Positions 23,327 to 61,946 of a DNA stretch of 64,000 nt are shown in pieces. A program made the translations under genes and the position numbers. The notes beneath the pieces were generated by a model. That model did no database searches. It was not told where the DNA came from and was given only the letters and a program-made list of their open reading frames with translations. How positions within the stretch are numbered: the first letter of the stretch is position 1; each line of letters starts with the position of its first letter. The stretch is from Bdellovibrionia bacterium (GTDB lineage Bacteria; Bdellovibrionota; Bdellovibrionia; Bdellovibrionales; JAGQZY01). The stretch spans positions 682,001 through 746,000 of the forward strand of contig JAUICP010000002.1 in NCBI GenBank assembly GCA_030427805.1, written 5' to 3'.

Positions 23327-24274
23327 ATGGACTTAGTCATTTCAATATCTCTACTCCTAGCAGGCTTTACGATTTTAATTTTCGCCGGTGATGCACTGGT
23401 AAAAGCCGCCGTTAGTATCTCAGCTCGAACCAAAATTGATCCCGCTACTATTGGCTTAACGGTTATCGCCGCTGGGACCTCAGCACCAGAACTCGTCACC
23501 TCTTTGCTGGCAGCCTTTAAAAACTCTCCCGATATCGCTCTCGGCAATGTTGTCGGGTCTAATATTTTTAATATTCTCGCAATCATTGGGATCGCCTCAA
23601 TTATTAAACCCAATAAAATCAGCACCCAATCACTGCGTATCGAACTGCCATTTTTGATATTCTCAGCGATCTTTCTATTCATACTTGGACAGGATCTCAA
23701 CTTTTCTCGAATTGACGGAAGCATAATGCTTTTAGTGCTGGGATTATTCCTCGTCTACACCATACGAGCAGCTAAAAAAAGGGGCATTGATACTGATCTT
23801 GAAGAGGAAATCGAGATACTCAAATCTCCACTCTACGACGGACTTTATCTTGTTTTGGGTTTTGTTGGGCTCATTGGCGGGGCTGATTTGGCTCTCAGGG
23901 GCGGAGTTCAAATCGGAGAGTACATAGGTCTTTCAGAAAGAATCATTGGAATAACTATAATATCCGTAGGCACAGGGCTTCCAGAGCTAGTGACTTCAGC
24001 GGTTGCTGCCTACAAAGGCCGAGATGATATCGCCATTTCTAACGTTATTGGCTCAAATATTATGAATACTCTAGCAATTATTGGCACAACTTCTCTCGTA
24101 CTCCCTATTAGTGCTTCAGAGCAGATAATGAACTTCGACGTTTACTGGATGATCGCAGCGAGTGCGATTTTACTTCCACTGTTTTATATGACCAAAAGAG
24201 TTTCAAACCGCCCAACTGCGGGCCTTCTACTAGGTATTTATTTAACCTATATAACAATTCTTATTGTGAACTAG
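23327..24274 (+). CDS. Calcium/sodium antiporter (CaCA family, YrbG-like)
   Basis: 315 residues with about ten membrane helices in two inverted halves. Each half has the alpha-repeat signature: IAAGTSAPELVTSLLAA with GNVVGSNIFNILAIIG, and ISVGTGLPELVTSAVAAYKG with SNVIGSNIMNTLAIIG. These carry the Glu/Asn ion ligands. Inner-membrane exchanger of Ca2+ (or another cation) against Na+ or H+. No strong ribosome binding site is seen before the ATG at 23327. The 3' end overlaps the convergent next gene by 14 bases. Confidence 0.93.
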   Translation: MDLVISISLLLAGFTILIFAGDALVKAAVSISARTKIDPATIGLTVIAAGTSAPELVTSLLAAFKNSPDIALGNVVGSNIFNILAIIGIASIIKPNKISTQSLRIELPFLIFSAIFLFILGQDLNFSRIDGSIMLLVLGLFLVYTIRAAKKRGIDTDLEEEIEILKSPLYDGLYLVLGFVGLIGGADLALRGGVQIGEYIGLSERIIGITIISVGTGLPELVTSAVAAYKGRDDIAISNVIGSNIMNTLAIIGTTSLVLPISASEQIMNFDVYWMIAASAILLPLFYMTKRVSNRPTAGLLLGIYLTYITILIVN

Positions 24275-24713
24275 ATTCAAAAGTCATTAGCACTTTAACC
24301 TGATCACTACCTTTAATCATTAGACTTGGAACAAAAGAGATTGCTCCCTCTTCGCGCTGAACGTATCGCAGGACTTTTCTGAAATCCGAAAATTCTTTGG
24401 GCTTTCGCGTGATACCCTTGGATTTTTGTCGGATCCAATATTTACGATATTGAGCTTCGGTGTCAAAAGCGAGAATCTTATTCAAAAAAGCACTTCTCGA
24501 AGCTTGAACACGACTGTTGTCACTTTTCACAATCGCTGGCAAGACTTCAATACCGCCAGGAAAACTCCCCTTACCTTTCTGCAAAAGAAAGTACTTTCTC
24601 ACCATATCTTTCCCAGAAAAGCTATTTTCCTTATTTAATATAAGTGAAAACTCTTCACCTTGGGCAATTTGAGCGAAAATAAAAAAAGCTGTAAAAACAA
24701 TTATTTTATTCAT
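24261..24713 (-). CDS. Small periplasmic PBP-like (PstS-related) protein
   Basis: 150 residues with a signal peptide (MNKIIVFTAFFIFAQIAQG). The arrangement of a FSGKDMVRKYFL-like segment, then FLNKILAFDTEAQYRKYW, and a final EEGAISFVPSLMIKGSDQVKVL resembles the short phosphate-ABC-type substrate-binding-like proteins often found next to porins. It sits 11 bases downstream of the porin gene and is probably co-transcribed with it. Ligand unknown; the fold call is by resemblance. Confidence 0.65.
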   Translation of the reverse strand: MNKIIVFTAFFIFAQIAQGEEFSLILNKENSFSGKDMVRKYFLLQKGKGSFPGGIEVLPAIVKSDNSRVQASRSAFLNKILAFDTEAQYRKYWIRQKSKGITRKPKEFSDFRKVLRYVQREEGAISFVPSLMIKGSDQVKVLMTFESSSQ

Positions 24714-24724
24714 AGCTCCCCCCT

Positions 24725-26151
24725 TTAAAAAGAAATGACAGCCGAAACAATGAGTTGGCTATAGTCTGGGTCCTTAGAATCAACTGCACCGCTGTCGAAT
24801 AATCCCTGTTCAGATTCGTAATCGACCAGTTGGTATTCCACTCTCAAGCGCAAGAGAGGATCGGGCAAATAGTTAATTCCAAAGATATGTTCAGTAATGG
24901 CATCGTCTTCAGTTTTGTCAGTTTTGTCGTAATTATCGTAACGATAGACTAACCTGATTTGATCACTTAACTCGAGGGAGGGTTGAACAATAAGTCCCTT
25001 TTTGTTGGTGTCATTTCCCTCTTCAATGGACCATACATATTCTAATTTGAGATTAAAGGTTCCGGCGTTAACGTAAAGATCTGCACCATAATTTTCATAG
25101 TTAAAGTCATCACGATTTCCGTCTCCGAGTGGGTCTCGCTGCCCCCCTTGAAACGAAGTACCAATCGCAACTTCATCGTCTAAGAAAGAAAAACGAAGTC
25201 TACCGCCGTAGATCATATGTGAAGGGTTGCCCCTAGTTGGCGCAGGACCATTGATAAAACTAAAGGATGAGTAATTGATATGATAATCCATTGTCGGACC
25301 GCCAACATCAAAACTTCCGAAGAGATCGACACCATTTAAAAAGTGCCCCCAAAAAACTCCACCGGGAATAGGCCGTAAAAACTGAGGTGCTGTCTCTAGA
25401 AAAAGGCCGGGGGGAAATGCTCAACGTTGATAATACCAATTGGCGCAACAAATCTTCCGAATTTAATGTTTGCTTGCTCAGACCATTTGTATGTTCCGTG
25501 AGAAATTATTAGTGGTACTGGGTTTTGCCGGCGGTTATCAGCATTATCCCCTTGATAAGTCCTTTCCGATGAATTTGCATCTTCGAGTACGGATTGAGAA
25601 ATAATCCCAAAAGCCGTAAAGAACTCCAAGTTTTGCGAGACATCCACGCCGAGAAGGAGTTCAAAACGATTGGATGTAAAGGATTGTTCCGATAGGGAGT
25701 CATTTCGCAAGTAAGCATAGGTACTCGTCAAAAACCCTCCTAAACGAAACCGATCAGCATCCATAGGAAACAAAGGTGATTTTTCTCCAATTATTTTTTC
25801 GATGTTATAAATTCGATCATCTAGATCTTTTAGAGAACCATCGACACCCTCAACTTGCTTATCAATTGTCTCTACATTCTTAATAAGGCTTTTAACCCGA
25901 CGCCACCGAGTTGATCGCTTCTTTTTCTTACGAGGTTTTTTAGGAGCCTTCTTTTTAGCAACTTTCTTCGCCTTCGCCTTTTTCTTTCTCTTCTCCTTTG
26001 GCTTCAGACTTTCCTGAATTTCCTCATCACCTTCTTCTTCGATAGATTGATTCTCACTCGGAGAGTTCGATTCTTGAGAATCGTTCTGTGCTATCGATTG
26101 AAATGAAAATAAGAATGAAACCAAAAGAAGTAGGATTAACTTCTTACCCAT
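24725..26151 (-). pseudogene. Outer-membrane porin gene with a one-base frameshift
   Basis: Two frames make one protein. The 5' part (26151-25396) codes for a signal peptide, an acidic linker, a Lys/Arg/Ala-rich stretch (about 50-85), a short coiled coil, and the first beta strands of a porin barrel (FRLGGFLTSTYAYLR, IKFGRFVAPIGIINVEHFPP), then stops at 25396. The 3' part (24725 to about 25410, in another frame) continues the barrel to a C-terminal strand ending in VSAVISF, a typical Phe-terminated signal. One extra C in the C6 tract (G6 at 25409-25414 on +) joins them into about 475 residues, giving HFPPGLFLETAPQFLRPIPGG-like porin sequence (quoted in part). It may be a sequencing error, a real null allele, or slippage-controlled. 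Confidence 0.8.
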
Positions 26152-26216: not shown

Positions 26217-26753
26217 TTAGCGATCGCTATCCTTAGTATCGACATCGATAACGTCATCTTCGTTTTCAGAGCGAAAGATGCGTTCTTCTTTTTCGAAGCG
26301 GTGTTGATTTTGTTGCTGTTGAGGCTTTCTTTCAAACCCTCCTGCCCCGTTAAAACCACCGAACCCAAAGTGGACGTGGGTTCTACCGCTTTTAATGCTC
26401 TCCGTGAATCGGTTCTTTAAATACCTAACTAAAAACATGCGAGTCAGGGGAAAAACCATAGTAAATCCAAGAAAGTCAGTAAAAAACCCGGGGGTCAACA
26501 GGAGGAGACCACCACCAAAAACAAGAAGCCCTGAAAGCAATCCATCTGCTGGTATCTGCCCTTGGGCCAGTTCTCCTTGAATGTTGGCGTAAACAGAGCG
26601 CCCCTGGGAACGAGCCAGTGCTGCACCCAAAATTCCAGTAATAAAAATAATGGCGATCGTATTAAGACCTCCAATTTCATCACTCACTTCGAAGAGTAAA
26701 TAGAGTTCGAGGATCGGGACAAGTGTGAATAAAAGGAGAAGATTTAAAAACAC
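26217..26753 (-). CDS. fxsA: FxsA family membrane protein
   Basis: 178 residues. The conserved FxsA core is clear: LVPILELYLLFEVSDEIGG, then a second helix with GILGAALARSQG, then GQIPADGLLSGLLVFGGGLLLLTPGFFTDFLG. Four hydrophobic segments are followed by a hydrophilic tail (about 125-178) rich in Gln, Arg and then acidic residues. FxsA is an inner-membrane protein known for suppressing F exclusion of phage T7; its basic function is unknown. The ATG starts immediately after the xth stop, so translation is probably coupled. Confidence 0.9.
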   Translation of the reverse strand: MFLNLLLLFTLVPILELYLLFEVSDEIGGLNTIAIIFITGILGAALARSQGRSVYANIQGELAQGQIPADGLLSGLLVFGGGLLLLTPGFFTDFLGFTMVFPLTRMFLVRYLKNRFTESIKSGRTHVHFGFGGFNGAGGFERKPQQQQNQHRFEKEERIFRSENEDDVIDVDTKDSDR

Positions 26754-59952: not shown

Positions 59953-61551
59953 ATGACATCCATCAATATAAATGACATCATTTCACTCAAAGACACTCAG
60001 TTGCAGAAAAAGAAACTCATGGAAGTGTTCGACATTAATGCGGCCAATGCCGACTACTTTGTCTCAATATTCAAGCAATTGAACCAAGCCGAAAAAAGCA
60101 TTTCTATAACCGAAGACCAAAACCAAAGTGGCTTTTTCCCCCTTGCTCTTGCAAGCAAGGAGCAGCTTCAGGAATTCAATATTTTTTCGTTTGCAGAAAT
60201 AAAGTCAAAAGAGCATAGGCACTACAATGGCCCCATCTATTACATGCCATTGATGGCCGGTATCGGTAGTTCAATAAAAAGAGAAAGCCATTTAAGCCAG
60301 CACTCAGGTAGAAACTCTTTGGGAACAAAAAGTACTGATTTGTTTGTGCAATCGACAAAGAGTTCCATTTTTGATCTTTTGGTCAAACAAATAGAAAGCC
60401 TTAATAAACAGGATCATCGAGACATTATTTTTTACCCACAGATGAGTGATGATACGTTTGAGTTAATTAAAGAATTGACGAAAAAAAAGGGCCCTCAAGG
60501 TACCCTCATCAACAGAGAAATTATTCAAAACAGACTCCCCACACTCATGGGCGATGATCTTGTCGATCAACAAACAGCTCCCGGAGGACATGGTTTTTTT
60601 GCCTACACTTGGATTAATAATTTATTTAAAAATTCGCCCCAGGGAATTTCTGTTATTGGCAATGGAGAAGATCTCAACTCCTTACCTCCAATTGAAATCG
60701 TTGACTGGTTCTCGCAACAGGACTTTCCGATTCTTATGATTACAACAACCAAAACCTCTATCGATAAAAAAGGCGGTCAAATCTGTCTTCTAAATGATAG
60801 TGACCAGTCTTCGCTTTCAATTGTTGAAAAGGCGCAAGCTGAGCAGAGCGGACAACTTGAACTGTTTTCAGAACTCGGTTTAAGGAAAAATGATGGTCCA
60901 AGCTTTTTCAATACCAATACGGTTCTGATAAATAATGATCTCCTACGAAAAAAGCTAGAATTACTGAGTAGAGATGGAAATGAACTCAATCTTCAAGATG
61001 TAATGAGTCCGCAATTAATCAAGAACAAAAAGAAAAACTCACAGTCTGATGAGTTTACGCAACTTGAAGGTGCTATGGGTTCAGTTGTTCTCCATCTCAA
61101 TCGGGAATTTAAAAAAGCTAAAGGTCAAAGCCTCTTGGGTATTCTAAACGTCGAACCAATCGATCGCTTCAAAGTCTTTTGCCCCATCAAATCGGCCTTC
61201 GATTTTGTCCACAAATTTTATTCGGACCGATTTTCTCTAAAAGAATTTCGATTGGTCGATGAAAATCCCGGGCTTCAGACTGAAGTATCACTTAAGGATC
61301 CCAGTGGAACCATTGACTATGACGATGTGACTTCATGTATGAATGCATTTCGAAATACTTCTCTGAAAGAACTTTCACAACTCAAGGTTGAGGGGCCCGT
61401 TGATTTCGAAGGAATGGAACTCATTGGTTCAATTAAAATCGAGAATAAAACTTCAAAGCCCCTCGTATTAAAAAAATGGATTCCTGAGGCTCAATTATCA
61501 AATTGTGAAATTAAATTTTTATCCGACGAAAAAGGAATCGAAAAAAGATGA
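59953..61551 (+). CDS. UDPGP-family nucleotidyltransferase (UDP-sugar/UDP-HexNAc pyrophosphorylase type)
   Basis: 532 residues from the ATG at 59953 (RBS GGAAAA; the frame extends to 59896). It belongs to the eukaryote-like UTP:sugar-1-phosphate uridylyltransferase family (UGP/UAP). Visible elements: MPLMAGIGSSIKRESHLSQHSG, which may stand in for the LxGGxGTRLG nucleotide loop; TLINREIIQNRLPTL; the strong APGGHGFFAYTWINNLF; and GISVIGNGEDLNSLPP, where UDPGP enzymes have the (D/E)NL pattern. ILNVEPIDRFKVFCPIKSAFDF resembles the NxWxPIKTxxDL region. The nucleotide loop is divergent, so activity and sugar are uncertain. Cytoplasmic, envelope precursor synthesis by family. Confidence 0.72.
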   Translation: MTSININDIISLKDTQLQKKKLMEVFDINAANADYFVSIFKQLNQAEKSISITEDQNQSGFFPLALASKEQLQEFNIFSFAEIKSKEHRHYNGPIYYMPLMAGIGSSIKRESHLSQHSGRNSLGTKSTDLFVQSTKSSIFDLLVKQIESLNKQDHRDIIFYPQMSDDTFELIKELTKKKGPQGTLINREIIQNRLPTLMGDDLVDQQTAPGGHGFFAYTWINNLFKNSPQGISVIGNGEDLNSLPPIEIVDWFSQQDFPILMITTTKTSIDKKGGQICLLNDSDQSSLSIVEKAQAEQSGQLELFSELGLRKNDGPSFFNTNTVLINNDLLRKKLELLSRDGNELNLQDVMSPQLIKNKKKNSQSDEFTQLEGAMGSVVLHLNREFKKAKGQSLLGILNVEPIDRFKVFCPIKSAFDFVHKFYSDRFSLKEFRLVDENPGLQTEVSLKDPSGTIDYDDVTSCMNAFRNTSLKELSQLKVEGPVDFEGMELIGSIKIENKTSKPLVLKKWIPEAQLSNCEIKFLSDEKGIEKR

Positions 61552-61580: not shown

Positions 61581-61591
61581 ACAAAGCCAAA

Positions 61592-61946
61592 CTGGTTTTC
61601 ATTAAGCCGGATTCTGTTCCATTTAATTCTGGCAAATTAAACTTTAGAAACCATTCATCTGGGCTCTCAATTACTATCGAGCTCATGCGATCTTACCCGG
61701 AAGCTTGTGCAGGCGACACTCAAGCGCTTCCCTATTTGATCTTGCTCCGTGCAGAGTTTAGCTGTTTTCACTCCAGCAACTCCCAAAATGCTTCCCGTTC
61801 CCAGCATTAAGATCATAGCTCTGGACATTCTCTCTGTTCCACTGGTCCTCATCTCTCGATGGAAGGGCGTTACCCTTTGCACTGCCTTATGAAGTCCGGA
61901 CTTTCCTCTCAAACCCGAAGGTTGAAGCGATTTCCTTTCAAACCAG
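61592..61946 (-). ncRNA. rnpB: RNase P RNA
   Basis: Catalytic RNA that trims tRNA 5' leaders. On the minus strand the 5' universal segment GAGAGGAAAGTCCGGACTTC occurs near 61910-61890. The middle has GCAAGATCAAATAGGGAAGC. The 3' part has CAGATGAATGGTTTCT and the universal ACAGAATCCGGCTTA near 61610. The ends pair as helix P1: CTGGTTT (61946-61940) with AAACCAG (61598-61592), giving about 355 nt. A TATAAA (61958-61953 on -) sits 7 bases upstream of the predicted 5' end as -10 element, and a strong terminator follows. The AACC-TTCG-GGTT hairpin near the 5' end fits P3. Confidence 0.95.

Follow-up and report, generated by a model that had tools for sequence, protein, structure and literature searches.

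A conserved outer-membrane porin gene of a Bdellovibrionia bacterium is broken in two at a run of six cytosines, and the most probable explanation, to which we give about one chance in two, is that the missing seventh C is a residual consensus error, absent from the assembly and not from the cell. This figure, like the weights given in words to the three other explanations, is a judgement and not a computed posterior. On this view, consensus calling would have dropped a single C from a run of seven that arose by chance (TTC CCC CCC GGC in a relative of the same genus), and the organism's main allele would probably be intact, with the full barrel made and no switch operating. The window, by which we mean the whole stretch of 64,000 nucleotides that was analysed, lies within a 917-kb contig of a 4.50 Mb genome (11 contigs, 98.9% complete). 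Two genomes served for comparison: the sibling, which is the one same-genus genome compared, a Bdellovibrionia MAG with 93% DNA identity over the porin region, and L004, which carries the next porin homologue, belongs to another family of the order and shows ~50% protein identity. The features under discussion are listed in Table 1.

Table 1. Features at the porin locus, in window coordinates.
Feature	Position	Strand	Evidence
C6 tract, point at which the porin frame changes (C7 in the sibling)	25409..25414	-	sequence, sibling comparison
Porin 5' part: signal peptide, polybasic segment, coiled coil and predicted strands 1 to 5; early stop at 25396-25398	25396..26151	-	
Porin 3' part, read in the second frame: the eleven further predicted strands; purifying selection persists	24725..25420	-	
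Next gene: small secreted 150-aa protein, matching by position the small, PBP-domain-like proteins encoded after porin homologues	24261..24713	-	
Upstream neighbour: FxsA family membrane protein	26217..26753	-	PF04186, E 3.4e-34

On the minus strand, the sequence around the break reads GAGCAT TTCCCCCCGGCC TTTTTC TAG, and the upstream open reading frame, 251 amino acids long, ends in HFPPAFF at a stop only a few codons beyond the C6 tract, as the earlier note had said it would. The downstream frame reads FPPGLFLETAPQF from the C6 tract onward and stays open as far as the C-terminus VSAVISF, which is a typical porin ending. In the sibling, the porin is one unbroken gene of 475 amino acids with seven Cs at the corresponding site, and the peptide HFPPGLFLETAP runs without interruption over the break point both in that 475-aa frame and in L004. 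The difference in tract length thus shifts the reading frame, C6 being broken in the window and C7 intact in the sibling, and the claim that the porin switches frame exactly at the C6 tract is confirmed. Because the downstream half is 98-99% identical in protein sequence to the sibling's intact gene, a chance juxtaposition of open reading frames is ruled out. The tract itself is present in only two genomes, so the direction of the change rests on the intact frame that the sibling and L004 have in common.

The broken gene encodes an ordinary outer-membrane porin of 16 strands, is present in a single copy and is strongly conserved. An AlphaFold2 model built from the sibling protein and seven homologues (mean pLDDT 60.6, with most strands at about 65-89) begins with a helix, which is followed by a polybasic segment that is disordered, two further helices, 16 strands and a C-terminal Phe. 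With a putative signal peptide at the N-terminal helix, a modelled 16-strand barrel and a C-terminal aromatic residue, the protein has the features of a general porin. Foldseek matches the sibling model in the PDB to OmpU, OmpC and OmpF with probability 1.00, so that the predicted barrel resembles the folds of these trimeric general porins, although identity to the solved structures is only about 11-13% and the porin here has an extra N-terminal polybasic segment and coiled coil. Against the Pfam family Porin_O_P (PF07396, gathering cut-off 20.9 bits), the close homologue in L004 scores 32.2 bits, whereas the sibling protein, at 15.6 bits, falls below the cut-off, and no match above it was found in the window's own genome. 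A search of that genome for a second copy of the porin returned the two halves and one weak match of 25% identity, and the idea of an intact paralogue was rejected. The residues encoded at the tract fall, in the model, in the loop that follows predicted strand 5; a protein made from the C6 allele would therefore probably still be exported, with eleven of its sixteen strands missing. Between the signal peptide and the coiled coil lies a Lys/Arg-rich stretch of 36 residues, KPKEKRKKKAKAKKVAKKKAPKKPRKKKKRSTRWRR (25897-26004, minus strand), which is absent in L004 and is possibly a tether that binds the cell wall or LPS.

Both halves of the gene are under extreme purifying selection. Compared with the sibling, there are 43 synonymous and 4 nonsynonymous differences upstream of the tract (dN/dS 0.021), and 50 synonymous and 3 nonsynonymous differences downstream of it (dN/dS 0.012), which shows that the porin was needed over the whole divergence of the two genomes. 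Had the 3' half gone untranslated all along the lineage's branch, taken as half of a dS of 0.477 over 515 nonsynonymous sites on the assumption of equal branch lengths, ~120 nonsynonymous changes would be expected; only 3 are seen, with an upper 95% Poisson bound of 7.75, and the break therefore spans at most ~6% of the branch. Such a low count on the downstream side points to a break that is very recent, reversible or absent from the cell.

The last of these is favoured because miscounting a homopolymer by one base is more likely than a null allele being the majority form of a single-copy gene under such constraint. Homopolymers are a known weak point of long-read consensus sequences, but runs of six or seven Cs are usually called correctly by current platforms (PMC9262707). 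What speaks against a consensus error is the quality of the assembly itself: in an alignment of about 301 kb with the sibling, runs of at least five bases agree almost always, the differing ones being more often longer than shorter here, and 15 of the 17 G/C runs of at least six bases that were compared agree, the exceptions being the C tract and, at a distance of 0.7 kb, a G5/G6 run. Genome-wide, systematic long-read homopolymer error is rejected on the same scarcity of length differences. Among the 247 sibling open reading frames compared over this distance, the porin is the only one that is truly frame-broken; a second apparent break, at L064:16080-17085, was set aside as an upstream start call, since both genomes have that gene intact when it is read from a later start. 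With so clean an assembly an error is less likely, yet one residual error in 300 kb is ordinary.

The same cleanness counts in favour of a genuine and very recent slipped-strand mutation, a reading that we rank second and hold to be unlikely. One C would have been lost from a chance C7, so that the strain or population that was sequenced has an inactive porin gene; the product, exported but without about eleven of the sixteen strands, would be degraded, and the locus would be either a pseudogene of recent origin or a null allele that segregates. Slippage is expected at C runs of such length, and selection, by phage or toxic solutes for instance, can favour cells that have lost a porin. Against this stand a dN/dS that marks the gene as needed throughout and the lack of a close second copy, and this strong constraint with no paralogue to fall back on makes a real null allele less probable.

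In the sibling, the tract encodes a conserved Phe-Pro-Pro-Gly, and the codons are common in both genomes, with CCC at 28% among the Pro codons and TTC at 27% among those for Phe, so that the C run needs no special cause. L004 encodes the same peptide as CAC TTT CCG CCA GGT, without a run. The comparison among relatives that the earlier note had called for thus yields a C7 tract with an intact gene in one same-genus genome and, in L004, the peptide without the tract; no relative turned up among the viral contigs that were searched for further alleles. In a sample of 1.2 Mb of the bacterium's own genome (L006-L025 and L106-L145), G/C runs of at least seven bases number 21, fewer than half of the 47-57 expected under a second-order Markov model. 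At a contingency locus the tract should be longer than chance or long tracts enriched, and relatives that carry the gene should retain the tract; here neither is the case. Across the same 1.2 Mb, no other gene is convincingly split in its middle at a G/C run of at least six, and the remaining hits were rejected as breaks because they resemble adjacent genes that meet at a ribosome-binding site.

Phase variation, in which C6 (off) and C7 (on) would interchange at low frequency to give porin-minus and porin-plus cells as in Bordetella bvgS, is in our estimation improbable. It draws on the two tract lengths in two related genomes, on the product being a surface protein, on a frame kept by selection as expected of a reversible off state, and on the bvgS precedent that C6 and C7 can switch, so that shortness alone does not exclude it (PMC1891110). 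The four results above, on codons, L004, long G/C runs and split genes, nonetheless count against an evolved on/off switch, which is not supported. Where the earlier note had offered phase variation or an error, the split at a homopolymer and a relative with C7 and an intact gene have stood, but the supposed layout of phase variation has given way before a tract that is short, explained by codon choice and absent in L004, in a genome where long G/C tracts are rarer than chance; error or a very recent mutation is what remains. Recoding, whereby a -1 ribosomal slip on C CCC CCG, a possible slippery heptamer offered by the zero-frame TTC CCC CCG, or polymerase slippage on the C run would yield full-length porin from the C6 allele, is highly improbable, as no stable stimulating RNA structure was found downstream of the tract (z 0.04), the sibling's intact frame does without recoding, and the heptamer arises only from the one-base difference, with nothing conserved.

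The surroundings of the porin recur elsewhere. The order of porin and small secreted protein is found in G026 as well and in genomes of another genus, whose small proteins show a weak likeness to a periplasmic binding-protein domain, with scores under the curated cut-off. The pair is seen at L147:1435-3045, L151:832-2411 and L152:772-2450, beside 24261-25420 in the window, with the weak domain match in some cases. A histidine-kinase-like gene lies near the pair in several genomes, and this recurring neighbourhood suggests a role in sensing. The G run that differs from the sibling (24718-24723, minus strand; G6 here, G5 there) falls in the ribosome-binding region of the small-protein gene. Farther along the window, a class A RNase P RNA (61588-61946, minus strand; 194.8 bits) sits tail to tail with a nearby plus-strand gene that ends near 61551, and the open frame that crosses the RNA is no evidence for an extension of a gene.

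To our knowledge, no homopolymer contingency locus has been described in Bdellovibrionia, and a small literature search found none. That a C6/C7 run turns a conserved single-copy porin on and off in this bacterium seems to us quite improbable. Should mixtures of C6 and C7 prove real, they would point to phase variation at the surface of Bdellovibrionia, of which signs are rare, and would bear on phage resistance and permeability. The case otherwise serves mainly as a warning: a surface-protein gene broken at a homopolymer resembles phase variation, but comparison with a single relative shows the tract to be a by-product of codons and the frame to be kept by selection.

A close known likeness is bvgS of Bordetella pertussis, where a run of six or seven cytosines inside the coding sequence likewise sets the product, one length giving the full protein and the other a truncated one (PMC1891110). 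There, both lengths occur within cultures and in mixed populations, whereas here each of two divergent genomes has one allele and nothing shows reversion; long runs are also in excess in Bordetella (PMC1891110). The phase-variable outer-membrane genes of Neisseria meningitidis also resemble the porin, being surface-protein genes whose frame is set by the length of an intragenic G/C run, but their tracts vary among strains of one species and mostly at lengths of 8 or more bases (PMC5084427), which tells against a switch at six or seven. Simple repeats are commoner than chance in the meningococcus (PMC5084427), in contrast to the depletion of G/C runs of at least seven bases in the genome studied here.
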